The position numbers were made by a program, and so were the translations under genes. Below the pieces are notes generated by a model. It worked only from the letters and a program-made list of their open reading frames with translations, was not told where the DNA came from and made no database searches. From the NCBI GenBank assembly GCA_013043165.1, contig JABDOQ010000107.1, positions 1 to 36,546 on the forward strand: a stretch of 36,546 nt of DNA, written 5' to 3'. Shown one piece after another: positions 6,132-27,877 of the stretch. Source of the stretch: Woeseiaceae bacterium (GTDB lineage Bacteria > Pseudomonadota > Gammaproteobacteria > Steroidobacterales > Woeseiaceae). Positions within the stretch are counted from its first letter, which is position 1. Each line of letters starts with the position of its first letter.

Positions 6132-7973
6132 ATGGCCAGGCAAGTCGTCATCGAGCGCTTGAGCGACCAGCTGAAGTCGATCAGCGAAGCTGCGAAAAGG
6201 CTCGAGTCTGACTACTCGGACGACCTTGCCGCCGTGCATCCCCAATTCCGCGACAGTGCCACGAATCTCGTGCACTACGTCGCGCTGCGCCAATCTGACA
6301 TCAGTGAACTTCAGGAAGATCTTGCCACCCTCGGCCTCTCGTCGCTCGGGCGCGCTGAACGGAACGTGATGGGATCTGTACACGCTGTCTGGACGGCGTT
6401 GCAGAAGCTCGGTGGCAGCACGGCCCATGATCTGGACCTCGAAGGCGTATCCCTGCAACTCAGAAACCCGCGCGCCGATGCACACAAGCGGGCAATCCTC
6501 GGCGATCACCCGGAGGGTCGGGACGTAAACATCATGGTCACGCTGCCGGCTGAGGCAGCGGAAAACCTGCAGCTCGTCGGAGAAATGATGGCAGCCGGCA
6601 TGGACGTCGCGAGAATCAACTGCGCGCATGACGACGCGACTACGTGGCGGGCCATGATTGAGAACGTAAGGACTGCCAGCGCCGAGGCCGAAAAAAACTG
6701 CCGCATTATAATGGATCTCGCCGGGCCAAAACTCCGCACCGGCCAGCTCCGCCCGGGACCTCGAGTGATTCACCTTCGTCCACGACGGGACCCGCTCGGA
6801 CGCGTTATTGGGCCTCGGCGAATTCGATTCATGCCCGACGACGTGTTGCAGCGTGGTACCAAGTCAGCCGTCATACCCGTACCCCGCGAATGCATCGAAT
6901 GCGCCGAGGAAGGCAATGAGTTCCGTTTCAAGGATACGCGCGGCAAGAAACGTCGCCTGATCGTGGTCGAAAAAGACGCGAAGGGCCTGGTGCTTGAAAT
7001 CTGGAAAGGCGCCTATATCGCAACCGGGACAAAATTACGTCTCGTGCGGCACGATGCGGGCGAAAAGCTCGTCTATCGCGTTGGCGAATTACCGGCTATC
7101 GAGCAGCCGATCTTGTTGCGGGTCGGAGATACGCTGATTCTCCACAAGGACAACATCCCGGGCGCGCCGGCAAAAGAAGATGCTGACGGCAATATTGTCG
7201 CGCCCGCGCATATTTCGTGCCAGCAGCCGGAAGTATTCGGGTTTGTTGGCGTGGGGCATCCGATCTCCCTCAACGACGGCAAGATTGCAGGCATTGTGCA
7301 GTCGGTAACTGACGATCGGCTCGACGTGGAGATTACCAAGGCCAAACCGATCGGTGGCCGCCTGCGTGGAAATCGCGGTATCAACTTCCCGGGCAGCGAT
7401 ATACGGCTGCCGGGCCTGACTGACTTTGACCGGCATAACCTGAAATTTGTTATTCAACACGCTGACGCCGTCGGCCTTTCATTTGTTCGGGAGCCGACAG
7501 ATATCCTGCTGCTGCAGGAGGCGCTACTGCAGTTCCCCGACAAACAGGTGGGTATCGTCATCAAGATAGAAACGAAGCGCGGTTTCAAGAATCTGCCAAG
7601 ACTCCTGCTGACCGCCATGCGCAGCTACCCTGCCGCCGTCATGATCGCGCGTGGCGATCTCGCGGTCGAATGCGGCTGGGAGCGCCTCGCCGAACTGCAG
7701 GAAGAAATACTCTGGTTTTGTGAGGCCGCGCAAATGCCCGTCCTGTGGGCAACGCAGGTTCTCGAACAGGAAGCCAAGAAAGGCCAGGCATCCCGCGCCG
7801 AAATCAGCGACGCTGCTATGTCGCAGCGCGCCGACTGCGTAATGCTCAACAAGGGACCGCACATCCTTGCTGCTATCCGCATGCTCGACAACATCTTGCG
7901 TCGGATGCAGAAACATCACTTCAAGAAAACGCCTCGTATGCGCGAGCTCAGTTTCTCGAAAGACAGTAACTGA
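6132..7973 (+). CDS. Atypical long pyruvate kinase
   Basis: This 613-residue protein is a divergent pyruvate kinase (PEP + ADP to pyruvate + ATP). Residues 1-130 form an extra helical N-terminal region absent from the ordinary enzyme of about 470 residues. The barrel starts near 132. M-D-V-A-R-I-N-C-A-H-D (157-167) matches the usual A-R-x-N-F-S-H-G region, and D-L-A-G-P-K-L-R-T-G (195-204) matches D-T-K-G-P-E-I-R-T-G. V-I-K-I-E-T (Lys near 478) carries the catalytic lysine and Mg-binding Glu, followed by M-I-A-R-G-D-L-A-V-E and V-L-W-A-T-Q-V-L-E. The part between about 205 and 385 is longer than a normal B domain. The C-terminal allosteric domain is missing: the protein ends soon after the barrel. 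AGGAG lies seven bases before the ATG. The family is secure; kinetics and regulation are probably unusual. Confidence 0.88.
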   Translation: MARQVVIERLSDQLKSISEAAKRLESDYSDDLAAVHPQFRDSATNLVHYVALRQSDISELQEDLATLGLSSLGRAERNVMGSVHAVWTALQKLGGSTAHDLDLEGVSLQLRNPRADAHKRAILGDHPEGRDVNIMVTLPAEAAENLQLVGEMMAAGMDVARINCAHDDATTWRAMIENVRTASAEAEKNCRIIMDLAGPKLRTGQLRPGPRVIHLRPRRDPLGRVIGPRRIRFMPDDVLQRGTKSAVIPVPRECIECAEEGNEFRFKDTRGKKRRLIVVEKDAKGLVLEIWKGAYIATGTKLRLVRHDAGEKLVYRVGELPAIEQPILLRVGDTLILHKDNIPGAPAKEDADGNIVAPAHISCQQPEVFGFVGVGHPISLNDGKIAGIVQSVTDDRLDVEITKAKPIGGRLRGNRGINFPGSDIRLPGLTDFDRHNLKFVIQHADAVGLSFVREPTDILLLQEALLQFPDKQVGIVIKIETKRGFKNLPRLLLTAMRSYPAAVMIARGDLAVECGWERLAELQEEILWFCEAAQMPVLWATQVLEQEAKKGQASRAEISDAAMSQRADCVMLNKGPHILAAIRMLDNILRRMQKHHFKKTPRMRELSFSKDSN

Positions 7974-10727
7974 CTAGACGCGCACCTCGGCAAAATCTTT
8001 CTCACGCAACTTCGCGTTCGCGGCCGCCAGCCTGGCAATTGGTATCCTCGGCCCCGAGCAGGAAACATAGTCAAGACCGACGTGGTGACAGAAACGAATC
8101 GACTCCGGATGTCCGCCCTGCTCTCCGCAGATGCCGATCTTCAGATCTTCGCGCTGCTGCCTGCCGCGGTACACAGCCATGTCAATCAGCTGGCCAACGC
8201 CCTGGATATCCAGCACCTCGAACGGGTTATCCTGCAGAATTCCGGTTTCGTTGTACATCGGCAGGAACTTGTTTTCCGCGTCTTCGCGAGAAAACGAGAA
8301 AACAGCCTGGGTCAGGTCGTTGGTGCCGAACGAGAAAAACTCAACGTGTGCTGCCAGTTGTGACGAGCGTGTACACGCCCGCACGGTTTCAATCATCGTT
8401 CCAAATTTGAACCTGATCTTTTTGCCAAAACCCTTCTCGAGCTGGTTCGTCAATGCATCAACCGTGAGCCTGACCTTCGAGAGCTCCTGTGCAGTGATCA
8501 CCTGCGGCACCATGATCTCGGGACGCACCGATATGCCGTTGTTCGCACATTCCACGGTTGCCTCCAGAATCGCCTGTATTTGCATTGAATATATTTCCGG
8601 ATAAGCAATACCGAGGCGGACGCCGCGGTGGCCCAACATCGGATTGACTTCCTGCAGTTCCAGCACCTTTTTTAGCATGCGCTCTTTCTTGCTCAGCGCA
8701 TCGTTGACGAGTTCCTCACTAAGTTCATTGAATGCTTCGGGCAATTCGGGCGGATGCGCCAGGGTTGCCAGCGCCGTGTACCGTCCTCGTACGACGTTGC
8801 GATAAAGGCGCAATGTTTCGATTTGCTCGAGTAGCTGCTGCTCTGTCGGCAGAAATTCATGCATTGGTGGATCCAGCAACCTGACGGTAACCGGGTTCGG
8901 CGACATAACCGAGAATAGCTCAACGAAGTCCGCGCGCTGGATTGGCATCAACCTGTCCAATGCGGCTTTTCTATCTTGCTCGTTATTGGCGAGGATCATG
9001 TCAATGACGATCGGCAGACGGTCGCTGGCGTTGAACATTCGCTCGGTACGGCACAGACCAATACCCATTGCCCCGTATTCAAGCGCTTTTTTGGCCGCAT
9101 TAGGCGTGTCGGCATTGGCCATGACCTTCAACCTGGCCGTCTCGTCCGCCCAGCGGAGCAACCGCTCCAGGTCATCAGAGAAGTGCGGCGGCACCGTCGG
9201 AATAGCGCCAAGGTAGACCATGCCCGTCGCGCCATCGAGTGTAATGACGTCACCTTGGTGGAGAATGTACTCACCGACATGCGCCTGTCGCAGCGCAACA
9301 TCGACGACTATCCCCTCAGCTCCCGCAACGCAGGGCTTGCCCATGCCTCGGGCGACGACTGCCGCGTGGGAAGTCTTTCCGCCCCGGCTCGTGAGGATGC
9401 CTTCGGACGCGAAAAAGCCGTGAATATCCTCGGGGCGCGTTTCCTCACGCACCAGGATCACCTGCTCACCCATCTTGCCGAATTTTTCGGCAAGATCGGC
9501 ATCGAACACGCATTTTCCCGACGCCGCGCCGGGGGAGGCCGGCAATCCCGTAGCAATCGGCCTGGCGATGCTCTCCGGATCAAGGCTCGGATGCAGCAGC
9601 TGCTCCAGCAGCTCGGGGTCAATTCTCAACAATGCCTGATCTTTGGATATTAACTTCTCATCGAACATGTCGACAGAAGTCTTGACCATCGCGGCCGCGT
9701 TCATTTTTCCGTTGCGCGTCTGCAGACAATAGAGTATTCCTTTCTCGATCGTGAACTCGTAGTCCTGCACCTCCTGGTAATGCGACTCGAGCTTGTTACG
9801 CAGCTCCACGAGTTGCTTGAACTGCTTGGGCATCTCGGACTCCATTTCCTGCAACGGTTTTGGCGTCCGAATACCGGCAACGACATCTTCACCCTGCGCA
9901 TTGGTCAGGTATTCACCGAACATTTCGTTTTCACCGGTGCCCGGGTTGCGCGTAAAACCAACACCGGTCGCGCAGTCATTCCCCATATTGCCGAATACCA
10001 TCGTGCAGATATTTACGGCCGTGCCGTTCGCCATGTCGGGCGTGATATGAAATTCGCGCCGGTAATCGACCGCGCGCCTGCCCATCCACGAGCGGAACAC
10101 AGCCTCGACCGCAAGCTGCAGTTGCATCATCACGTCTTGTGGAAAGTCACTGCCGCTCTCGCGACGGACCACGCTGAGAAACTTCTCGCTGATTTCCTTG
10201 AGGTGACCTGCATCCAGTCCGACATCGGCTTTCACGCCGGCACGTTGCTTGACGTCCTCGAAATGCTCGTCGAAATGTTCATCCTCGATGCCCAGCGCAA
10301 CTTTGCCGAAAAGCTGGATGAAGCGACGATAAGCGTCGTACACGAATCGCTCGTCGCCGGTTTGCTGAATCAAGCCTGCAAGCGTTTTGTCATTCAGGCC
10401 GAGGTTGAGAATGGTGTCCATCATGCCCGGCATCGACATGGCCGAGCCCGAGCGGACCGAAACCAGCAGGGGATCGTCGCCTTTTCCGAAGGACTTGCCG
10501 GTAGCCGCCTCGAGCTGCGCGATCTCTTCCTTCACGGCCTGCATGAGCCCCGCAGGCAGCTTGTCTTCCTTCAAATAGTCGAGGCACGCCTCAGTGGTGA
10601 TGACGAAACCCGGGGGAACATTGATTCCGATCTGGGTCATCTCGCACAGATTGGCGCCCTTGCCGCCGAGCAGTTTCTTATTGTGGCCATCGCCATCAGC
10701 AAATGAGTAGACGCGCTTGTTCTTCAT
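7974..10727 (-). CDS. ppdK: Pyruvate, phosphate dikinase
   Basis: PPDK interconverts pyruvate, ATP and Pi with PEP, AMP and PPi in the cytosol. The order is ATP-grasp nucleotide domain (K-L-L-G-G-K-G-A-N-L-C-E-M near 18-30; S-V-R-S-G-S near 90-95), swivelling phosphohistidine domain (G-G-K-T-S-H-A-A-V-V-A-R-G-M-G, catalytic His454) and PEP/pyruvate barrel (S-F-G-T-N-D-L-T-Q; G-I-C-G-E-Q-G-G-H-P, catalytic Cys867). Thr452, two residues before the His, matches the Thr phosphorylated by the PDRP regulator in plants and bacteria; no PDRP gene lies in this window. The 917-residue length fits the family. ATG 10727 (MKNKRVYSF) was chosen because the conserved domain starts there; the frame is open to 10790. 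Its stop directly abuts that of the pyruvate kinase gene, so the two genes face each other tail to tail. Confidence 0.95.
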   Translation of the reverse strand: MKNKRVYSFADGDGHNKKLLGGKGANLCEMTQIGINVPPGFVITTEACLDYLKEDKLPAGLMQAVKEEIAQLEAATGKSFGKGDDPLLVSVRSGSAMSMPGMMDTILNLGLNDKTLAGLIQQTGDERFVYDAYRRFIQLFGKVALGIEDEHFDEHFEDVKQRAGVKADVGLDAGHLKEISEKFLSVVRRESGSDFPQDVMMQLQLAVEAVFRSWMGRRAVDYRREFHITPDMANGTAVNICTMVFGNMGNDCATGVGFTRNPGTGENEMFGEYLTNAQGEDVVAGIRTPKPLQEMESEMPKQFKQLVELRNKLESHYQEVQDYEFTIEKGILYCLQTRNGKMNAAAMVKTSVDMFDEKLISKDQALLRIDPELLEQLLHPSLDPESIARPIATGLPASPGAASGKCVFDADLAEKFGKMGEQVILVREETRPEDIHGFFASEGILTSRGGKTSHAAVVARGMGKPCVAGAEGIVVDVALRQAHVGEYILHQGDVITLDGATGMVYLGAIPTVPPHFSDDLERLLRWADETARLKVMANADTPNAAKKALEYGAMGIGLCRTERMFNASDRLPIVIDMILANNEQDRKAALDRLMPIQRADFVELFSVMSPNPVTVRLLDPPMHEFLPTEQQLLEQIETLRLYRNVVRGRYTALATLAHPPELPEAFNELSEELVNDALSKKERMLKKVLELQEVNPMLGHRGVRLGIAYPEIYSMQIQAILEATVECANNGISVRPEIMVPQVITAQELSKVRLTVDALTNQLEKGFGKKIRFKFGTMIETVRACTRSSQLAAHVEFFSFGTNDLTQAVFSFSREDAENKFLPMYNETGILQDNPFEVLDIQGVGQLIDMAVYRGRQQREDLKIGICGEQGGHPESIRFCHHVGLDYVSCSGPRIPIARLAAANAKLREKDFAEVRV

Positions 10728-10792
10728 ATGTGGGTTACCGGTGGGTGAATCAGGAGTATTTCGGGGTCGAATAGTGGCCCATCGGCGCACCG

Positions 10793-18256: not shown

Positions 18257-18615
18257 GGCGCATCCTCGAAAAGTCAGCCCAGACTACCTCCGGGAAACCG
18301 TGGCATTAATAACTTTTTCTATTCAAACTAGCAATTTAATATTGTTAGTTTTATCGATTTTGCTTTGCTAAAGTCGTAGCAAGGCCCTTGTTTCGACTCA
18401 AGGCAGACATTCAATCGAGGGACTCGAAATTGAACCACACGATTAAAACGAGGACATTTGCCGCTATCGCCGCGATGACGTTTTTTTGTCGCGCTCGTCG
18501 CCGGCCCCACAATAGCGAACGGACGCGTCGTGGTGATGAATTGCTGCCCATAATCAACAGGCTCAGTTCGACGTCAGAGCAATAGGTAACTCACCTGCCC
18601 TTGGAGAATTTCAGA
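18257..18615. other. AT-rich divergent spacer between corA and the ATP-grasp gene
   Basis: This spacer is clearly more AT-rich in its left half (18300-18370) than the flanking genes. It holds an 11-base inverted repeat at 18325-18351 and probably the promoters of both divergent genes. Its right half (18430-18553) contains a possible short exported-peptide frame interrupted at a run of seven Ts. No confident gene was found. Confidence 0.4.
18325..18351. promoter_or_regulatory. AT-rich inverted repeat (candidate operator or hairpin)
   Basis: AAACTAGCAAT (18325-18335) and ATTGTTAGTTT (18341-18351) form an 11-base inverted repeat with one mismatch (G-U in RNA) and a five-base spacer. It lies about 70 bases upstream of the corA start and 265 bases upstream of the ATP-grasp start. 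The symmetry and AT-richness fit a dimeric repressor site; a hairpin is the alternative. Confidence 0.35.
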
Positions 18616-19911
18616 ATGGAAGCCGCACAGAAATTTTTGTTCGTGTCCCTTGACGCCCTGATCAGCGATATCGCCTGGCAGGTTCACAAGGAAGGTCGGG
18701 ACGTAAAGTACTACATCGGCAATGAGTCGGAGCGTTCGATCGCCGAGGGTTTCGTACCAAAAGTCGACGACTGGGAGAGCCATGTCGACTGGGCCGACGT
18801 AATCATTTTTGACGACGTGCTCGGCCAGGGCGAGCATGCCAAGCGCCTGCGTGACGCCGGCAAACACGTGGTTGGTGGAACACCCTACACCGACAAGCTG
18901 GAAGACGATCGCACCTTCGGACAAAACGAACTCAAGCGACACGGCGTATCCATTATTCCGTTTCAGGAGTTCTCCGACTTTGACTCGGCGATCGAGCACG
19001 TCAAAGCCAACCCTGCTGCCTATGTCATCAAGCCCAGTGGCGAGGCGCAGAATATAAAACGGCTTCTGTTTGTCGGCCGCGAGGATGACGGCAAGGACGT
19101 CATTCACGTACTTGAATCCTACAAGGCTGTCTATTCAGATACCGTGAAGGTGTTCCAGCTGCAGCGACGAGTGAAAGGCGTTGAGGTCGCGGTGGGCGGC
19201 TTTTTCAACGGCTCGACCTTCATGATGCCAATCAATGTCAACTTCGAACACAAGCTGTTATTCCCCGGCGACATCGGTCCGGCAACGGGTGAAATGGGCA
19301 CCTGCATGTACTGGAGCGGGCCGAATCGCATCTTTCGGGCAACGCTGGGGAAACTGGAAAAGAAACTGGCGGAAGAAGGTTATGTCGGTTACATCGACGT
19401 CAACTGCATTGTCAATGGAAACGGCATTTATCCACTGGAATTCACCGCTCGATTCGGCTACCCGACCATCTCGATCCAGGCGGATGGCCTTGGAATACCG
19501 GTGAGCGACTTCCTGGCGGGCATGGCCAGCGGATCGTTAGCTGAATTCAAGACCAAACGCGGATTTCAGATCGGCTTGCGGATCGTCGTTCCGCCGTTTC
19601 CATACAACGATCCGAAAACGTTTGAGGCCAATTCCAAAGATCGAGTCATTATTTTTCGAAAGCCCAACCTGGATGGCGTGCATATCGAGGACGTCAAGCT
19701 GGTCAATAACGAGTGGCTCATTGCCGGCAGTTCCGGTGTCGTGCTAATTGTGACCGGCATGGGTGTCTCGGTGAAACAGGCCCAGGCACAGGCTTATCAG
19801 CGGGTTAAAAATATATTGATACCGAACATGTATTACCGAAAAGACATCGGTGATCGCTGGTTTGAGGATCATGACAAGCTGCACACGTGGGGTTATTTGC
19901 GAGAAAACTGA
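18616..19911 (+). CDS. PurD-like ATP-grasp ligase of unknown substrate
   Basis: This 431-residue protein has the architecture of phosphoribosylamine-glycine ligase (PurD), a cytosolic ATP-grasp enzyme. Recognisable parts are Y-V-I-K-P-S-G (about 136-142, ATP-binding lysine strand), E-H-K-L-L-F-P-G-D-I-G-P-A-T-G-E-M-G-T (about 211-229; PurD has H-K-x6-D-x-G-P-x-T-G-G-M-G) and Y-P-L-E-F-T-A-R-F-G-Y-P-T (about 272-284; PurD has E-F-N-x-R-F-G-D-P-E). The N-terminal glycine loop G-x-G-G-R-E-H-A is absent, and the metal-ligand Asn and the following D-P-E are replaced by Thr and Y-P-T. It is therefore probably not the purine enzyme but a paralogue joining another amine and acid. ATG 18616 follows GGAG by nine bases. 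It appears monocistronic. Confidence 0.8.
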   Translation: MEAAQKFLFVSLDALISDIAWQVHKEGRDVKYYIGNESERSIAEGFVPKVDDWESHVDWADVIIFDDVLGQGEHAKRLRDAGKHVVGGTPYTDKLEDDRTFGQNELKRHGVSIIPFQEFSDFDSAIEHVKANPAAYVIKPSGEAQNIKRLLFVGREDDGKDVIHVLESYKAVYSDTVKVFQLQRRVKGVEVAVGGFFNGSTFMMPINVNFEHKLLFPGDIGPATGEMGTCMYWSGPNRIFRATLGKLEKKLAEEGYVGYIDVNCIVNGNGIYPLEFTARFGYPTISIQADGLGIPVSDFLAGMASGSLAEFKTKRGFQIGLRIVVPPFPYNDPKTFEANSKDRVIIFRKPNLDGVHIEDVKLVNNEWLIAGSSGVVLIVTGMGVSVKQAQAQAYQRVKNILIPNMYYRKDIGDRWFEDHDKLHTWGYLREN

Positions 19912-19984: not shown

Positions 19985-21481
19985 ATGTTACCGCACCAGG
20001 ACGTCATTGCTGAGATATCGCGCCTGCCCGACGGGCCGCAGATAGGCGCGTTCTTCGACTTCGATGGCACCGTCATATCCGGTTACTCGGCGTTCGCGTT
20101 TATCGAGGAACAGATCAAGCGCGGCCACCTGTCGCCTCGCGAGCTAATCGAGCTCGTTGGCGCCATGGCCAGCTTCGGCCTCGGCAAGATGGGCTTTTCC
20201 GCCATGATGCTTGGCATGGCCCAGTTTCTGCGCGGCGTTCGCGAGGACAGCTATGCGGCATTTGGGCGAGAGCTGTTCGAATCGCATATCGCCCGCCAGA
20301 TATATCCGGAATCACGAGCGCTGGTCGAGGCCCATCTGCGCAAGGGACACACGGTCGCAATTATTTCATCGGCAACGCCTTACCAGGTCGAGCCGGCCGC
20401 GCATGACCTCAACATCGAAAACGTTCTTTGTACGCACCTGGAAGTCAAGAAAGGCATGTTCACCGGCGCCGTGATCAGGCCCACGTGTTTCGGCCAGGGC
20501 AAGGTTACGGCAGCCGAATCGATGGTCGAGAAGTTTGGCGTCGACCTCGATCAAAGTTTTTTCTATTCGGATAGTGATGACGATCTACAGCTACTTGAGC
20601 GCGTCGGCAATCCGCGCCCGCTGAATCCGAACAAGAAACTGCTGGCGATTGCCGAGTACAGAGGCTGGCCGGTGCGCAGGTTCGGAAGTCGCGGGCAGAC
20701 GCGTGTCACAGACTGGATTCGATCTTTGCTGGTACCTGCCAGCCTGGTCGGCTCTTTCCTCGCCGGCCTGCCGATATTCGCCCTTACCGGCTCGAGGCGA
20801 GATGCGTTGAATTTTTCTGTGTCGGTGTTCGCGGATACCGCGAGCGCGCTGATCGGCCTGAATCTCAAGGTCAAGGGCGAGCAACACTTGTGGTCACATC
20901 GTCCCGCCGTATTCATATTCAATCATCAGAGCAATGTCGACATGGTCATTATCGCTCGATTGCTGCGCCGCGATATCACCGGCGTCGGCAAGCGCGAGAT
21001 TCGTGACATGCCCGTAATCGGTCGCGTCATGGAGGCCGCCGGTGTCGTTTTGATAGACCGCAGAAACTCTGCCAGCGCCATCGAAGCGATGAAACCACTC
21101 GTGGACGCCATGCGTGTCGAGGGCAAGTCGGTTTGTCTATCACCGGAGGGCACGCGTGCACCGACGATCCGGCTTGCGGATTTTAAGAAGGGTGCCTTCC
21201 ATCTCGCGATGCAGGCGGGTGTTCCAATTGTGCCCATCGTCATACAGAACTCCGGCGACGTGCAGCCGAAAGGCGACATGCTTTATCACCCGGGCACTGT
21301 CGAGGTCGAAGTATTGCCGCCGGTCGATACCAGCAAATGGTCGGCGGACACGATCGACAAACACGTGGCCGACGTAAGGGCGATGTACCTGCGCGCACTG
21401 GAACAAGACCCTGATTCAAGAAAATCGCGGTCGCCCCGAGCTGTGCTAACCGACGTATCTGCAGGCGGAGCGCGTGAGTGA
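19985..21481 (+). CDS. HAD-IB hydrolase / 1-acylglycerol-3-phosphate acyltransferase fusion
   Basis: This 498-residue protein joins a HAD phosphatase to a PlsC-type acyltransferase. F-F-D-F-D-G-T-V (DFDGT at 25-29) is HAD motif I; S-S-A-T-P (about 137-141) and Y-S-D-S-D-D-D (about 197-203) are motif II and the metal-binding motif IV. After a linker and hydrophobic segment (about 247-265) the PlsC domain shows N-H-Q-S-N-V-D (HX4D at 314-319) and S-P-E-G-T-R (EGTR at 388-391). PlsC acylates lysophosphatidate; the HAD half may dephosphorylate a lipid or soluble phosphate, which is unproven. The same fusion occurs in mycobacterial Rv2483c. The ATG follows a GGAG site by about eight bases. Its last codons overlap the plsB start by four bases. 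Confidence 0.9.
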   Translation: MLPHQDVIAEISRLPDGPQIGAFFDFDGTVISGYSAFAFIEEQIKRGHLSPRELIELVGAMASFGLGKMGFSAMMLGMAQFLRGVREDSYAAFGRELFESHIARQIYPESRALVEAHLRKGHTVAIISSATPYQVEPAAHDLNIENVLCTHLEVKKGMFTGAVIRPTCFGQGKVTAAESMVEKFGVDLDQSFFYSDSDDDLQLLERVGNPRPLNPNKKLLAIAEYRGWPVRRFGSRGQTRVTDWIRSLLVPASLVGSFLAGLPIFALTGSRRDALNFSVSVFADTASALIGLNLKVKGEQHLWSHRPAVFIFNHQSNVDMVIIARLLRRDITGVGKREIRDMPVIGRVMEAAGVVLIDRRNSASAIEAMKPLVDAMRVEGKSVCLSPEGTRAPTIRLADFKKGAFHLAMQAGVPIVPIVIQNSGDVQPKGDMLYHPGTVEVEVLPPVDTSKWSADTIDKHVADVRAMYLRALEQDPDSRKSRSPRAVLTDVSAGGARE

Positions 21482-23778
21482 AGGTCAGCCCCTGGCCGAC
21501 CAATGACACCGGGAACGTACTTGTTGTTCTGGATGCCGTGCACCGGGTAGAGCAGCAGCACCTGGAAGCATGGCTGGAGCGCGAGCGCAAAAAACAGGGA
21601 TATTCCGGAACGGTCGAGCACGTGGTGCTTCCGCTGGCAGAATCCCCGGAAGATCTTCCCGCCGGAAAGTTATCCAGCGTCCCAAATGTGACTGACGAGA
21701 CCCTTGTGGTGCCCGTGCGGGTTGTGTGGTTGAAGGGACTGGACGTCAAGGGAACAACGCCGAGGCTTCGGGACCTGTTGTTCGGCAGTCCAAGGCGCCC
21801 GGGGCCGATGAGGGCGCGGTACGTTCTGAAAAAGCATCCAATGCGCGCCAAGTGCATCACCGGCAGGCCGGCGACACTCAAAGAATTGCGGCAACGATTG
21901 CAGCATCGACTTGGCGCGACACCAGACCGGGATCAGCTGACCCGGTTCATCGCTGGTCAGGCAAGCATCGCGCTCGATATCGCGGAACGACGCTTGCGCG
22001 GCAGCCGCTACAAGGTTCCGCGGCACGTCGCTCATAACCTGAAATCACGCCGTGAATTCATCGATGCACTCGAGGATCTGAGCCGGCACACGGGCCGGTC
22101 AGTCGGCGACCTGCAGGCCGAGGCCGACGACATATTCAAGGAGTTGATCGCGATACCGCAGGCTTTTTGGCTGGACATGAGCTACCTGCTCAATCGCAAA
22201 ATTTCTACCCTGGGCTACGACAAGGAGATAGTCGTAGATCCAACCAGCTTGCAGCGCGTTCGACAGATCAGCAAACAGCATCCCACGGCAATTTTGTGCA
22301 CCCACAAGACGCATGTGGATTTCCCGGCCCTGAACAAGGTTATGTTCGAACATGATTTTCCGGCGCTGCACACGATGGGTGGCGTAAATATGGCTTTTGC
22401 CGGACTCGGTTTCCTTGCCCGCCGCGCCGGAGTTATTTTCATCAGACGCAGCTTTCAGGATGACCTGCTCTACAAGCTTATTTTGCGACAGTACATTGGC
22501 TACCTGATGGAAAAAAACTTTCCGCTGAGCTGGGCATTCGAAGGTACCCGTTCCAGAGTCGGTAAACTCATGCCACCGAAGTACGGGATTTTGAAATACG
22601 TTCTCGACGCGGCACATGCCAATGATGCAGGCAGCTTACATATCATCCCGGTTTCGCTGAACTACGACCTGATCAGCGATGTGCGCGACTATGCCAGGGA
22701 ACAGTCTGGCCTGAAGAAGCGCCCGGAAAGCTTGCGCTGGTTCCTCGGCTATATGCGCAGCCTGAACAAGCCTATGGGTAAGATCTACATGAATTTTGGC
22801 GAGCCTGTCGTACTCGAGGAAGTGCCGCCAGGCGAAGACCGGCTTGCATGCGCCAAACTCGCTCTCAAGGTCGGCGTCGAGGCCAATCGGGTAACGCCGA
22901 TAACGTTGGCGTCGCTGGCGACAATGCTGTTGCTCGGCAGTTCGCCGCGCGCATTGACACGTCACGAGCTGGCAATTGAGATCAAGGAAGTCGTGCTATG
23001 GGCCAATGCCCGGAAGATCAGGATTACCCACCATTTCGAGGTCGAAAACGAAGCGGAGCTGGCGGCGATGGCCCGGGTGCTGGTGAATAACGGAATGCTC
23101 ACTCGTTATGACGACGGCCCCGAGGAGGTTTACGCGATCGCGCCCAAGCAACATGCCGTGGCGAATTACTACCGAAACACAACAATTCATCATTTTGTCA
23201 CGAAGGCTATTGCAGAATTAGCGCTGCTCCGCGCCTCGACGTCACAAGAAGCTCCAATGCAGGCGTTCTGGCAAGAGGTAGATCGGCTTCGCGACCTGTT
23301 CAAATTCGAATTCTTCTACGCGCCGCGCGAAGAGTTTCATCATGAAGTCAGCGAGGAGCTGCGACGGTATGCCGATGACTGGGAAGACAGGCTGGCGCAG
23401 GAAGCCGAGTATGCGAGCAGGCTGCTGCGCGAATTTCGGCCGCTCGTCGCGCACGCCACATTGACCCAATTCGTGGAAGCGCACTATGTTGTCGCCGATG
23501 TCGCGGCCGTCACGCCGCCCGACAAGGCGCTCGATCGCGATGACTGCCTGCGACGGTGTTTTGCGTATGGCAGAGCAGCCTATCTGCGACGACGCATCAG
23601 TAGCGAGGCGTCGATCGGCAAACAATTATTTGAAAACGGCTATAAATGGATTGAGAATCGAGGTCTTGCCGAAGCGGGTGATGCCGAACTCACCGCGCGC
23701 CGGGTACAAACAAGTCAGGGTCTCCGCGAGCTGATGCATCGCCTGGAGCAGATAAAAGCGCTCGCGCTGCCCGTCTGA
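21478..23778 (+). CDS. plsB: Glycerol-3-phosphate acyltransferase (PlsB family)
   Basis: PlsB adds the first acyl chain to glycerol-3-phosphate at the inner membrane. The four family blocks are readable in order: H-K-T-H-V-D (HX4D, His276 to Asp281), G-V-I-F-I-R-R-S-F, W-A-F-E-G-T-R-S-R-V-G-K-L (E. coli has E-G-G-R-S-R-T-G) and I-I-P-V-S-L-N-Y-D. The 766 residues compare with about 807 in E. coli and include the long helical parts on both sides of the catalytic core. The start is GTG 21478, sharing GTGA with the stop of the preceding gene, which implies translational coupling. This may be a storage-lipid paralogue of the housekeeping enzyme, since its neighbours make neutral lipids. Confidence 0.92.
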   Translation: MKVSPWPTNDTGNVLVVLDAVHRVEQQHLEAWLERERKKQGYSGTVEHVVLPLAESPEDLPAGKLSSVPNVTDETLVVPVRVVWLKGLDVKGTTPRLRDLLFGSPRRPGPMRARYVLKKHPMRAKCITGRPATLKELRQRLQHRLGATPDRDQLTRFIAGQASIALDIAERRLRGSRYKVPRHVAHNLKSRREFIDALEDLSRHTGRSVGDLQAEADDIFKELIAIPQAFWLDMSYLLNRKISTLGYDKEIVVDPTSLQRVRQISKQHPTAILCTHKTHVDFPALNKVMFEHDFPALHTMGGVNMAFAGLGFLARRAGVIFIRRSFQDDLLYKLILRQYIGYLMEKNFPLSWAFEGTRSRVGKLMPPKYGILKYVLDAAHANDAGSLHIIPVSLNYDLISDVRDYAREQSGLKKRPESLRWFLGYMRSLNKPMGKIYMNFGEPVVLEEVPPGEDRLACAKLALKVGVEANRVTPITLASLATMLLLGSSPRALTRHELAIEIKEVVLWANARKIRITHHFEVENEAELAAMARVLVNNGMLTRYDDGPEEVYAIAPKQHAVANYYRNTTIHHFVTKAIAELALLRASTSQEAPMQAFWQEVDRLRDLFKFEFFYAPREEFHHEVSEELRRYADDWEDRLAQEAEYASRLLREFRPLVAHATLTQFVEAHYVVADVAAVTPPDKALDRDDCLRRCFAYGRAAYLRRRISSEASIGKQLFENGYKWIENRGLAEAGDAELTARRVQTSQGLRELMHRLEQIKALALPV

Positions 23779-23794
23779 ATAGGGAGTAGAACGT

Positions 23795-25282
23795 ATGGAT
23801 CAGTTAAGTCCGCAGGACGCCCAATTTCTGTACATGCAGTCAGAAGACAACCTGACGCACGTAACATCGATAGCCATTTTCGATCCGACGACGGTGCCGG
23901 ATGGCGCCGTCGTTCGCTTCAAGGACATACTGGCTCATATCGAAGGGCGTCTGCACATGAGCCCGTTATTCAAGCGACGGCTCGTGCGTGTGCCACTCGA
24001 ACTCGACTTTCCATACTGGGTCGACGACCAGAATTTCGACCTCGAGTACCACGTTCGGCACGGCCGACTCCCCAGACCGGGAGACTGGCGGCAATTCTGC
24101 ATTCACATGGCACGCTATCACTCGCGGCCCCTGGATATGGACCGCCCGCTCTGGGAAATGTACGTTGTAGAGGGTCTCGACAATATTGAGTGGCTTCCCA
24201 AAGGCAGCTACGCCATTGCGGCCAAGATTCATCATGCCGCCGTCGACGGCACGGCGATCATCGATTTTTTTGGAGCGATGGCGGATATCGACAACAAGGG
24301 CACGCCCGCGATGCCGCTGAATATGGCGAAACTACGTCGCAGCCCGCAACCCAGTCTGCTGGATATGGCCGTTCGAGCGACCTGGCATACAATACGCTCC
24401 CCGATCGGCATGACCGACGCGGTCATGCGTGCCGTGCCAAGCCTTTACAACCTCGCGCAGAGCGCGCTGCGGTCGCAGAAAAAGGACAAGCATGGCGTGC
24501 CTGATACCCGCTTCAACGACGCCGTTTCAGCGCAAAAGATGTTCGACGCGAGGTCGTTCCCGCTGGCTGACCTGAAAGCCGTGCGTGAAGCCGTCCCGGG
24601 CTGCACGATCAACGATGTTGTCCTCGCGATATGCGGTGGCGGCCTGCGTTACTACCTGCAGCACCACGATGAGCTGCCTGATGATTCCCTCGTTGCCTGG
24701 GTGCCTATAAACGCCCGTCGAGGCGCTGCATCCGATGCAGATACGCCGGGCAATGACATTACCTCGATGACGACGCCGATCTGTACCGACATCGAGGATC
24801 CGATTGATCGCCTGATATGCGTCCACAATGCGACACAGGAAAGCAAGGCCGCGAAGGCCGGCATGTCGGCACGATTGATGACGGATCTCAGCAAGCACGT
24901 ACCGGCATCAACCCTGGTGATGGCCAGCCGCCTGGTATTGCGCGCCAGCACGACAGTTCGCATGTGCAATCTGTTCATTTCGAACGTGCCGGGGCCGCAG
25001 ATACCGCTGTACATGAACGGCGCTTGTCAGGTGGGCAGTTTTGGCATGGCGCCATTGGCCAACGGCATGGGCTTGTTCATCGCAACACCAAGTTACAACG
25101 GCCAGATGTCTTTCAATGTCACCTCAACACGAGAAATTTTGCCGGACATAGACTTTTTCGTTGACTGCCTCGAGCGCTCGTTGAAAGATCTGAAGAAGGC
25201 CGCCAAGCCGACCAGGAAGACCAGGAAGACCGGCGGCAAGAAAACTCCCACCAAGAAAAAAATCCGCGCCGTTAAAGCGTAG
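23795..25282 (+). CDS. Wax ester synthase / diacylglycerol acyltransferase with Lys-rich tail
   Basis: This 495-residue WS/DGAT would transfer acyl-CoA chains to diacylglycerol or long-chain alcohols at the inner membrane, giving triacylglycerol or wax ester droplets. The start M-D-Q-L-S-P-Q-D-A-Q-F-L is typical. P-L-W-E-M-Y-V-V-E-G-L precedes the active-site H-H-A-A-V-D-G (His146, His147, Asp151). N-D-V-V-L-A-I-C-G-G-G-L-R (about 274-286) and F-I-S-N-V-P-G-P (about 400-407) are further family motifs. The last 30 residues are an unusual tail with 11 Lys and 3 Arg and no acidic residue, encoded in part by a nine-base tandem repeat. GGGAGT about eight bases before the ATG supports the start, 16 bases after plsB. 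The end overlaps the convergent hydrolase gene by 11 bases. Confidence 0.93.
   Translation: MDQLSPQDAQFLYMQSEDNLTHVTSIAIFDPTTVPDGAVVRFKDILAHIEGRLHMSPLFKRRLVRVPLELDFPYWVDDQNFDLEYHVRHGRLPRPGDWRQFCIHMARYHSRPLDMDRPLWEMYVVEGLDNIEWLPKGSYAIAAKIHHAAVDGTAIIDFFGAMADIDNKGTPAMPLNMAKLRRSPQPSLLDMAVRATWHTIRSPIGMTDAVMRAVPSLYNLAQSALRSQKKDKHGVPDTRFNDAVSAQKMFDARSFPLADLKAVREAVPGCTINDVVLAICGGGLRYYLQHHDELPDDSLVAWVPINARRGAASDADTPGNDITSMTTPICTDIEDPIDRLICVHNATQESKAAKAGMSARLMTDLSKHVPASTLVMASRLVLRASTTVRMCNLFISNVPGPQIPLYMNGACQVGSFGMAPLANGMGLFIATPSYNGQMSFNVTSTREILPDIDFFVDCLERSLKDLKKAAKPTRKTRKTGGKKTPTKKKIRAVKA
25211..25228 (+). repeat. Tandem 9-base repeat in the WS/DGAT tail
   Basis: ACCAGGAAG occurs twice in tandem and a third copy begins at 25229. 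It encodes T-R-K repeats of the basic C-terminal tail, so the tail may have grown by in-frame slippage. Confidence 0.6.
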
Positions 25283-26216
25283 CTGCGCGGCAGTTGCTCA
25301 GGAACTGCACATGCACTGCCGCGGACTCCATGGGCCGTTCCAGCATCGGTACGTGTCCGGTCTCTTCTAACACAACGCAGTGATTGTTCGGAATTTGAGC
25401 TTTCAGCACATCGACACAGCTCACGTCGATGAGCCGGTCGTGGCGACCCCAAATGACCAGGGTTGGCGCCACAATGGCATGCAGCTGATCATTCAGAGGC
25501 CGTTCCTGCATTTCCTCAGCCATGGGCCAGAAGATTGCTTCCAGGAATAGTCGGTGCGCTATCAGGTCTTCACAGTACGGTTGCTTGATAAAGCCGGGCA
25601 GCGGCAGCGGCCTGTAAACTATGAACTTGAGCAGCCTGTCGAACTCTTCGGGCGACGAAACGGTCAGCAGGCTTTCGCCGTTTTCGGTCGCAATCTGCAG
25701 TTCGCTCTTGGTTTTGCCCAGAACGCCGGCGCTGTCGAGCAACGCGAGGCTCTGGATTCTATCGGCGTATGCAAGCACAAATTTCAGCGCAATGTATCCG
25801 CCCATCGAATTGCCGCCGAGATGAAACCTGTCGATTCCCATCGCATCGACAAATGCGAGCAGCCATCGCATCTGCGCATCCATGTGATAGTCCGCGTTCG
25901 GATCTCGCGCGTTATCGCCGAAGCCCGGCAGGTCCGGGACGATGACGCGGTAGTTTTTTCGCAGGCCGCGCGCGTACATCAGCCAGTTGTCCTTGTCGCC
26001 ACTGAAGCCGTGTAGCAGGACCAGGACTTCGCCGGACTCCGGACCACCTAAAAGATACGGCCAGCGAGTGCCGTCGAACTCGACCGATCGCGTCCTGAGA
26101 CCCATGATTCTGCGAGCTCCCAGCAACACGAGGCGCAGAAACTGTCGTGGAAATGCAAAACGGAATATGACGACGGCGACAATGAGTGCCGCCGCCGAAA
26201 TCAGAATGTTGCTCAT
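25272..26216 (-). CDS. Membrane-anchored alpha/beta hydrolase (candidate lipase)
   Basis: This 314-residue serine hydrolase has one N-terminal membrane segment (about 4-20). The oxyanion H-G is at 69-70, and the nucleophile elbow G-N-S-M-G-G puts the catalytic Ser at 137. W-G-R-H-D (acid residue) and E-T-G-H-V-P-M-L-E (His) complete the triad near the C-terminus. D-L-P-G-F-G-D is the usual loop after strand 4. Context suggests a lipid ester substrate: it faces the WS/DGAT gene and follows a patatin-like lipase gene on the same strand. The position recalls lipQ next to the mycobacterial WS/DGAT. ATG 26216 was chosen because it yields a clean anchor; it lies four bases after the patatin stop codon, so the two are probably one operon. 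Confidence 0.88.
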   Translation of the reverse strand: MSNILISAAALIVAVVIFRFAFPRQFLRLVLLGARRIMGLRTRSVEFDGTRWPYLLGGPESGEVLVLLHGFSGDKDNWLMYARGLRKNYRVIVPDLPGFGDNARDPNADYHMDAQMRWLLAFVDAMGIDRFHLGGNSMGGYIALKFVLAYADRIQSLALLDSAGVLGKTKSELQIATENGESLLTVSSPEEFDRLLKFIVYRPLPLPGFIKQPYCEDLIAHRLFLEAIFWPMAEEMQERPLNDQLHAIVAPTLVIWGRHDRLIDVSCVDVLKAQIPNNHCVVLEETGHVPMLERPMESAAVHVQFLSNCRAATL

Positions 26217-26220
26217 CAAA

Positions 26221-27657
26221 TCAGCTGGCCCGTCGCGATACGCTGCTGCGCAGCCGCGGTTCCTGGTGATCCAGGCCGCGCAGGATTTCATCGAGTTTCC
26301 TGCTGATCTTCGTCTGCACGCGGATCATCTCGATCTTCGGCCAGGTTCCTTTCTCACCCATTTCGATCAGTTCGATGATCTCTTCGATCGATTTGTGCGC
26401 CAGTAACTTGAGCGGGTTAAACATACGTTTATCCGGCAGAATGTTGATATCACCAAAGTAGTCCTGATTGATGATGCTCAACGCCACATTTGTAACCTTG
26501 TTTATTGTGGGGTTCCACGCCAGCGGTCGCTCAAACAGCGATGCGCTGGCATTGATCCACTCGCGTGCAATCCGCCCGCTGGCAAGTTTTACAGTCGTAA
26601 TTGGATCTCTTTTTCTCTTGGTGTCGGTGACAAACGGAAAAATATGCGGATTGATCTGGCTGACAATAAAATGATTCACGCCGTAGATGCGCGACAGGCG
26701 TTTTGCAGGCAGGTCGTCGCTCAACGAGCCGTCGACCCATCGCCGTGACGGCAGGTATGGCTGCTTTTGTCCCTGGTCGTTTTTAGCGGCAAGCGCGACC
26801 GGAGGATAGAAGCCGGGAACCGCGGCGGAGGCCATGACGGCTTCGCGGACATAGACGTTTGGTGTCGTGATCGAATTCAGCAAGCGCGATGTCTGGTGCT
26901 TTTCGGCGGCTGCAATCGATACATTCAGATGTCGGCCCGTCAGCTCAAAAGCTTCCTGAAACGTCACATCCGGTATCAGCCGATTGAGTGCCTCCTGAAC
27001 GTCTTCCGTTTTCGCGACTTCCGGCCGGAATGCCTCAAAACGCCTGAACAGTCCCTCATCGCGTTGCATTTCCTGCGCGAGGTTCTCTGGTTTGAGCATG
27101 TCTTCCAGGTCCTCGTCGTCGTGTACACCGACCAGGCTGCCCACCACCGCGCCGCCGCTGCTGCCCGACAGCACGCCTGGCAGCACTCCCTCCAGCCACA
27201 GCGCCTTGACGACGCCGATGTGGAAGAACAACAGCGAACCAGCGCCGCTCATCATGAGCGCTGAGCAACCGTAGCAGTGCTGAGCACGACGGAAGAAATC
27301 CAGCCTTTCATCCATTGGTATGTCATCGGCCTCGGAACTGGCAAGCATTTCCAGAGCGTCAACGACTTCGTCGACATAGTCCACGATGAGCTTCTTGGTG
27401 CTGAATTTCGCCTTGCCGTAAAGGGCCGAGCTACCCATGCCATCGATATTGCCGTGAAGGCCCTCGTTGAGCGCGAATAACACGGCGGCGTGGTCCTTTT
27501 TCGCCCTCAATCGGCGCAAGCGCCGCAAACGTCGGCGAATAGACGTGTAGTCAAAGTGCTTCGATTCGTCGGATTTTATCCATTGCATTACGCCGGATTT
27601 CTTGTCGTGCGCTTTAGCTGCGGCTTTCCACTCGTCGTAGGTGCGCGCTTCCGCCAT
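26221..27657 (-). CDS. DUF3336-patatin phospholipase / triacylglycerol lipase
   Basis: This 478-residue protein has an N-terminal DUF3336-like helical region (about 1-125, starting A-R-T-Y-D-E-W-K) and a patatin domain. That pairing is known from eukaryotic Tgl3/4/5 and SDP1 triacylglycerol lipases and from bacterial relatives. M-S-G-A-G-S-L-L-F-F-H-I-G (136-148) fits the glycine-rich oxyanion loop. S-G-S-S-G-G carries the catalytic Ser at 167, and W-V-D-G-S carries the Asp at 309, completing the Ser-Asp dyad. The start at 27657 follows GAGG at good distance; ATG 27693 would add 12 residues with no Shine-Dalgarno. It is the first gene of a two-gene minus-strand operon with the alpha/beta hydrolase. 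Release of fatty acids from stored lipid is inferred from the family and neighbours. Confidence 0.88.
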   Translation of the reverse strand: MAEARTYDEWKAAAKAHDKKSGVMQWIKSDESKHFDYTSIRRRLRRLRRLRAKKDHAAVLFALNEGLHGNIDGMGSSALYGKAKFSTKKLIVDYVDEVVDALEMLASSEADDIPMDERLDFFRRAQHCYGCSALMMSGAGSLLFFHIGVVKALWLEGVLPGVLSGSSGGAVVGSLVGVHDDEDLEDMLKPENLAQEMQRDEGLFRRFEAFRPEVAKTEDVQEALNRLIPDVTFQEAFELTGRHLNVSIAAAEKHQTSRLLNSITTPNVYVREAVMASAAVPGFYPPVALAAKNDQGQKQPYLPSRRWVDGSLSDDLPAKRLSRIYGVNHFIVSQINPHIFPFVTDTKRKRDPITTVKLASGRIAREWINASASLFERPLAWNPTINKVTNVALSIINQDYFGDINILPDKRMFNPLKLLAHKSIEEIIELIEMGEKGTWPKIEMIRVQTKISRKLDEILRGLDHQEPRLRSSVSRRAS

Positions 27658-27877
27658 ATCCGCCTCAAGGCGTTTCGTCGCTGAAAATATCATGTCTGAT
27701 CTGCGCTCGTGCTGCCCTTATCTGGACCAGCATACACGCTAAAGTATTGCAAAAAGAGCCGATCAGTCGCTTTTTTGATAGCAGAATATCCCTATATTTC
27801 TGGCCACGCCCCCGGTGTACATTGAGGTACGGATTCAGCGCCGGGCCTGAACGGCCATGGCCGGAGGCAAGAGACCG

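Follow-up and report, generated by a model that had tools for sequence, protein, structure and literature searches.

How are stores of triacylglycerol (TAG) and wax ester mobilised in proteobacteria? To our knowledge their breakdown is poorly defined in this group, and the question is raised by a cluster of five genes on contig JABDOQ010000107.1 of a Woeseiaceae bacterium (Gammaproteobacteria; assembly GCA_013043165.1). The window, i.e. the whole stretch of 36,546 nucleotides that was analysed, is a single whole contig (C41) of a genome of 3.19 Mb, which comprises 113 contigs and is 98.4% complete. At positions 19985..27657 its plus strand carries a HAD-PlsC fusion, the glycerol-3-phosphate acyltransferase (GPAT) PlsB2 and a wax ester synthase/diacylglycerol acyltransferase (WS/DGAT), and its minus strand carries a DUF3336-patatin protein and an alpha/beta hydrolase (Table 1). 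Open reading frame (ORF) and profile searches confirmed the presence, coordinates, strands and families of all five genes as they had been predicted from the DNA alone, with every family above its curated cut-off. We consider it likely that this is a chromosomal locus for TAG turnover, serving both synthesis and breakdown; the original prediction had likewise proposed synthesis and remobilisation of storage lipid, and the sequence data are consistent with it. The synthetic cluster is already known, and the new element is its linkage to the lipase.

In the proposed pathway PlsB2 would acylate glycerol-3-phosphate and the PlsC domain of the fusion protein would then produce phosphatidate; the HAD half would probably dephosphorylate phosphatidate to diacylglycerol, and WS/DGAT would add the third acyl chain to form TAG. 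The opposed minus-strand operon would probably reverse this synthesis, with the DUF3336-patatin opening TAG and the PlaF/ABHD6-like membrane hydrolase taking the di- or monoacylglycerol, or lysolipid, products. A broader proposal, to which we give a little less than an even chance as a whole, is that many proteobacteria with WS/DGAT use the DUF3336-patatin as a lipase dedicated to mobilising storage lipid (a bacterial counterpart of plant SDP1 and yeast Tgl3-5), acting with a PlaF/ABHD6-like second step, that the HAD half is the phosphatidate phosphatase in PAP2-free genomes, and that the five genes form a complete TAG cycle.

Table 1. Genes of the putative TAG turnover locus (positions in the window).
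Feature	Position	Strand	Details
HAD-IB phosphatase domain + PlsC-type lysophosphatidate acyltransferase fusion	19985..21481	+	498 aa; PF12710 115 bits, PF01553 107 bits
PlsB2, glycerol-3-phosphate acyltransferase, PRK03355 type	21478..23778	+	766 aa, GTG start; NF002886/PRK03355 752.9 bits, GPAT_C
WS/DGAT, wax ester synthase/diacylglycerol acyltransferase	23795..25282	+	495 aa; PF03007 199.8, PF06974 101.2, TIGR02946 404.7 bits
Alpha/beta hydrolase, PlaF/ABHD6 type, predicted membrane-anchored	25272..26216	-	314 aa from internal ATG (339 aa from 26291); Abhydrolase_1 PF00561 112 bits
DUF3336-patatin lipase, predicted	26221..27657	-	478 aa from ATG 27657 (490 aa from ATG 27693); PF11815 113 bits, PF01734 90 bits

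The tight plus-strand operon facing a minus-strand pair was borne out. The HAD-PlsC and PlsB2 frames overlap by 4 nt and a spacer of 16 nt separates PlsB2 from WS/DGAT, a spacing that suggests co-transcription of the three genes. On the minus strand the patatin lies upstream of the hydrolase, at a spacer of 4 nt if the latter starts at 26216; the patatin start used here is the second in-frame ATG of a longest ORF that begins at 27693. WS/DGAT and the hydrolase are convergent, tail to tail, and their 3' ends share 11 nt, an arrangement through which the two operons may be regulated. Scans of the locus for promoter consensus (3 promoter-like sites, shuffle mean 3.9) and for terminators (8 terminator-like sites, shuffle mean 8.3) gave no signal above shuffled sequences.

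Co-occurrence and linkage of DUF3336-patatin and WS/DGAT

Three overlapping samples of genomes were searched, at the level of order (196 genomes), class (185) and phylum (378). DUF3336 was present in 20, 9 and 12 genomes of these samples, respectively, and WS/DGAT scored above the cut-off in 56, 12 and 39. Every genome with DUF3336 also carried WS/DGAT (20/20, 9/9 and 12/12; one-sided Fisher 7e-13 for the order, 4e-13 for the class and 3e-13 for the phylum); after merging by hand, the samples held 36 distinct DUF3336 genomes from 14 families, all of them with WS/DGAT.

The two genes are also physically linked. In the order sample the 21 DUF3336 genes comprise 20 loci (L105-L124; loci, genomes, contigs and families are denoted by L, G, C and f) and the window. 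WS/DGAT was found within 1 kb of 12 of them, tail to tail in 11 cases and head to head in one (L106), against an expectation of approximately 0.1-0.4% per gene under random placement. The coupling is beyond chance, although its significance is overstated by the relatedness of the genomes. In family f168 (L112-L114) the tail-to-tail layout is kept despite diverged proteins (25-28% identity for WS/DGAT and 37-38% for the patatin). Outside the order, the two genes are divergent and 2.0-2.3 kb apart in G139, G390 and G741, and co-directional in G634 (2.3 kb apart), G581 and L204. Two loci, L204 (from a genome titled Sphingomonadaceae) and L221 (G581, from another class of the phylum), have the whole set of five on a single strand, in the order HAD-PlsC, PlsB2, WS/DGAT, patatin and then hydrolase. 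Near a contig end in L119 the patatin and the hydrolase are paired, and the one WS/DGAT match of that genome is on a different contig. No such tie between DUF3336-patatin and WS/DGAT was found among the open-access papers searched, one of which contains the term DUF3336 (PMC6929052). One-way co-occurrence together with repeated adjacency in differing layouts points to a single, specific candidate for the lipase, open to direct assay.

Gene trees were built for the patatin and for WS/DGAT, with 28 and 38 rows, respectively, on a hand-picked set of 42 loci that omits, among others, L116, L122 and L219. Rows had to reach 350 aa, and the split patatin of L125 is therefore absent. Both trees place the window with L126-L128, L105 near L109, L110 with L111, and L204 with L221. 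They conflict on L106, whose patatin groups with L105 and L109 and whose WS/DGAT falls in another group. Long branches were flagged in these trees, and some of their deep forks are weak.

Protein families and catalytic motifs

The catalytic motifs that were searched for are intact in all five window proteins, and their conservation was counted among relatives picked by similarity. In the HAD-PlsC fusion the two Asp residues of DFDGT are kept in 84/84 and 83/84 sequences, the first Ser of SSAT in 79/88, the Lys of GQGK in 88/88, and the second and last Asp of SDSDDD in 82/88 and 88/88. In the same protein, both His and Asp of NHQSNVD (89/89) and the Glu of EGTR (88/88) are invariant, as are in PlsB2 the His (120/120) and Asp (121/121) of HxxxxD and the Glu of EGTRSR (121/121). 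WS/DGAT carries HHxxxDG at aa 146, with its second His in 77/78 and its Asp in 78/78 relatives.

PlsB2 is a PRK03355 equivalog (cut-off 721) and scores far below the cut-off of the E. coli-type PlsB model TIGR03703 (177.6 bits versus 618.5). By comparison, PRK03355 scores are 1091.4 bits for a Nocardia homologue, 825.6 for L204 and 949.1 for L221. The PlsB2 of Mycobacterium smegmatis has been described as acylating glycerol-3-phosphate in vitro (PMC10593935). For WS/DGAT the cut-off of TIGR02946 is 309.95 bits, well below the score in Table 1.

The predicted patatin lipase has the domain order DUF3336 (PF11815, aa 6-138) and then patatin (PF01734, aa 146-331), which we take to be the domain pair of the eukaryotic SDP1/Tgl lipases. 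The Ser at the catalytic position of GSSGG is conserved in 40/41 relatives and the Asp of DGS in 40/40, which corresponds to a Ser-Asp dyad. The same dyad is found in the patatin domain of the SDP1/Tgl3-5 lipases of plants, algae and yeast; those are eukaryotic, whereas the window protein is bacterial, and the likeness is one of domains and dyad. An algal SDP1-type patatin has been reported as a TAG lipase by complementation (PMC5461629). A role of the window patatin in defence was rejected, as PADLOC gave no match.

The hydrolase carries GNSMGG, with its Ser in 16/16 relatives, and aligns over most of its length with PlaF of Pseudomonas aeruginosa (6i8w, E 4.4e-67, residues 11-312) and with human ABHD6 (7ots, E 5.4e-37, residues 35-308). 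Its N-terminus is hydrophobic (19 residues from aa 4, mean hydropathy 2.65), pointing to a hydrophobic helix like that of PlaF.

Diacylglycerol supply and storage lipids in the host genome

Elsewhere in the genome, contig C72 encodes an E. coli-type PlsB (917.5 bits against the cut-off of 618.5; PRK03355 score 198.9), and PlsB2 is therefore an extra GPAT. A second WS/DGAT, distant from that of the window (26% identical), is located on C88. One Pfam model for the PAP2 family, which matched 11 of the 14 controls, found nothing in this 98.4% complete genome. For this reason the HAD half is somewhat favoured as phosphatidate phosphatase, although diacylglycerol could come via other routes. A genome without a PAP2 match offers a clean setting for the published, unproven idea that the HAD domain supplies diacylglycerol. 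The one Pfam model used for polyhydroxyalkanoate synthase, PhaC_N, had no match in the genome either, and matched one of the 14 controls.

The synthetic half across relatives

From 272 relatives of PlsB2 in named genomes, 80 loci were kept. Neighbours were detected with profiles made from window-like proteins and a 100-bit floor, so that remote WS/DGATs could be missed, and the neighbourhoods end at contig ends (e.g. L129, L130 and L119), so that counts of absence are upper bounds. The closest named relatives of PlsB2 (87-91% identity, L125-L128) are from Woeseiaceae and other gammaproteobacterial metagenome-assembled genomes. In 69 of the 80 loci PlsB2 has HAD-PlsC at a distance of 3 kb or less. 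WS/DGAT is found at up to 5 kb from PlsB2 in 31 loci, being downstream on the same strand in 22 and upstream and divergent in nine, six of which are titled Arenicella. As to a possible transfer of PlsB2 from Actinobacteria, all loci have proteobacterial titles except L130, and PlsB2 is 31-32% identical to the one actinobacterial sequence in the comparison, a PRK03355-type protein of Nocardia.

Whether the five genes co-occur often was a point on which the original prediction depended, and the outcome is mixed: the complete set was found in only five of the 80 loci (L125-L128 and L204), some neighbourhoods being truncated by contig ends, while pairs drawn from it recur widely. In the congeners L105 and L107-L111, HAD-PlsC and WS/DGAT adjoin the patatin without PlsB2 between them. 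Since the order HAD-PlsC, PlsB2, WS/DGAT is found elsewhere, loss of PlsB2 would be the simpler reading of these loci.

Some loci of this survey deviate in other ways. The patatin frame of L125 (L125:6591-8028) consists of two overlapping pieces and is a single frame in each of L126-L128. In the congeners L099, L100 and L103 a shorter PlsB relative (613-aa frames, approximately 33-34% identical to the window PlsB2) is situated between HAD-PlsC and WS/DGAT, and a second WS/DGAT, encoded on the opposite strand, flanks HAD-PlsC on its far side. L130, on a contig titled Nitrospinae, has the same HAD-PlsC, PlsB2 and WS/DGAT genes at mostly 78-85% identity, and is probably a mis-binned Woeseiaceae contig or a recent transfer.

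Alternative explanations

Several observations weigh against a role of the five genes in TAG turnover. The Fisher values for the co-occurrence come with no unrelated control family and overstate the evidence because the genomes are related. Nor is the patatin the general lipase, since WS/DGAT genomes often lack DUF3336 (36/56 in the order sample, 3/12 in the class sample and 27/39 in the phylum sample). In the order sample, nine of the 21 DUF3336 genes have no WS/DGAT within 6 kb, some of them near contig ends; three of the nine have one at 7-10 kb (L115, L116 and L117). The hydrolase does not adjoin the patatin in L204 and L221, lying 0.9 and 1.9 kb past it, respectively. By sequence, the only match of the patatin in the PDB was a weak one, to PlpD (E 0.0098). 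The hydrolase has PlaF as its nearest relative of solved structure, and PlaF has been characterized as a membrane phospholipase A (PMC9132575). Finally, no WS/DGAT was matched within 5 kb of PlsB2 in 49 of the 80 loci, a group in which the titles Haliea, Halioglobus and Halieaceae are frequent; the main role of the HAD-PlsC/PlsB2 pair may thus be in membrane lipids.

Membrane remodelling is the main rival, given the phospholipase A activity of PlaF. In such a Lands cycle the patatin and the PlaF-like hydrolase would deacylate phospholipids, HAD-PlsC and PlsB2 would reacylate or resynthesise them, and WS/DGAT would dispose of surplus diacylglycerol or acyl-CoA. Many patatins are phospholipases, and the numerous PlsB2 loci without a nearby WS/DGAT point in the same direction. 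We nevertheless regard this explanation as unlikely, as remodelling alone would not predict a DUF3336-patatin that is confined to WS/DGAT genomes in three samples and adjoins WS/DGAT in three orientations, and an E. coli-type PlsB is encoded elsewhere in the genome.

Slightly less probable again is that wax ester, rather than TAG, is the main product, with the lipases freeing fatty alcohol and acid. WS/DGAT enzymes are commonly bifunctional, and PF07993, a fatty acyl reductase model, matched 14/14 control genomes and is non-discriminating, so a wax ester product may still be formed. Coastal sediments have in addition been reported to hold potential for both wax ester and TAG (PMC10351704). TAG is preferred here since the enzymes predicted from the operon would make diacylglycerol, and a fatty acyl reductase is not among them. 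That the synthetic operon is real and the two hydrolases are chance neighbours is very improbable: the five-gene set is rare and the congeners L105 and L107-L111 have no PlsB2 beside their DUF3336/WS/DGAT pair, but more than half of the DUF3336 genes in the order sample adjoin WS/DGAT, and the five genes recur in another layout in two genomes outside Woeseiaceae (L204 and L221).

Comparison with known systems

Complete Kennedy-pathway clusters with ws/dgat have been reported in Gammaproteobacteria by Galvan et al. 2023 (PMC10351704). According to the section describing it, their scaffold S1-7808 has a complete Kennedy set beside ws/dgat, as in the window; its WS/DGAT and alpha/beta hydrolase are also found in Woeseia sp. 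StnF, with which it has PAP/AGPAT in common, and its GPAT and a "putative lipase" are common to the Woeseiaceae bin JSS_woes1 (PMC10351704). Given this shared content, the window is very probably another copy of the reported locus type, likened by its described genes. Galvan et al. do not identify this lipase as a DUF3336-patatin ("patatin" does not occur in their main text), and the section concerned draws no link between it and WS/DGAT (PMC10351704). The novelty of the locus is lowered accordingly, in that its synthetic half was known; the link to the lipase remains new.

For Rhodococcus, Amara et al. 2016 (PMC4850399) proposed that the HAD half of an AGPAT-HAD fusion acts as phosphatidate phosphatase, a role that both this paper and PMC10351704 call unproven. 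The atf9-plsB-plsC cluster of Rhodococcus jostii RHA1 combines WS/DGAT, PlsB and the AGPAT-HAD fusion in one operon (PMC4850399), and the window shares its trait of adjacent WS/DGAT, GPAT and AGPAT-HAD fusion genes. The tags of plsC (RS27555) and atf9 (RS27565) leave room for plsB between them, and on these locus tags the linear order may be the same as in the window (PMC4850399). The RHA1 cluster is actinobacterial, and the available text of that source contains 0 occurrences of "patatin" and no opposed lipase operon (PMC4850399).

A mycobacterial type of gene order had been claimed for the locus, and this does not hold against Mycobacterium tuberculosis, in which Rv2482c encodes GPAT/PlsB2, Rv2483c PlsC, Rv2484c a TAG synthase and Rv2485c LipQ (PMC3503283, PMC10699116). 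As all four tags end in "c", the naming rule gives the transcription order lipQ, WS/DGAT, plsC, plsB2, whereas the window has HAD-PlsC, PlsB2, WS/DGAT and its lipases on the opposite strand. What is shared is the content, i.e. clustered PlsB2, PlsC, WS/DGAT and a lipolytic alpha/beta hydrolase, while order and direction differ when the locus tags are compared. No patatin is among the neighbours named in these sources, consistent with the view that the locus extends the mycobacterial set by the patatin. LipQ, described as a homologue of hormone-sensitive lipase (HSL) (PMC10865251), was considered as the equivalent of the window hydrolase and rejected, since LipQ is HSL-type and the window protein is a PlaF/ABHD6-like Abhydrolase_1 member. 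In Nocardia farcinica PlsB2 is followed by HAD-PlsC, and no match to the WS/DGAT models was found within 18.4 kb. A plasmid-borne form of the cluster is found in Mycobacterium paragordonae (L216:435-7752), where a WS/DGAT-family gene lies together with genes for an alpha/beta hydrolase, a HAD-IB protein and a PlsB-like acyltransferase.

Neighbouring genes in the window

An ATP-grasp protein is encoded at 18601-19911 (+) and ends 73 nt upstream of HAD-PlsC; it is PurD-like, with 104 bits against a PurD cut-off of 288. An ATP-grasp gene is also located upstream in L125-L128, at a distance of 0.2 to 2.1 kb. Farther away, a 613-aa protein (6132-7973, +) has a pyruvate-kinase barrel split in two pieces (approximately aa 131-215 and 359-573), and a 938-aa PPDK-like phosphoenolpyruvate-utilising enzyme (7974-10790, -) lies tail to tail with it at zero spacer. 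These two genes form a second convergent pair around one metabolite in the window.

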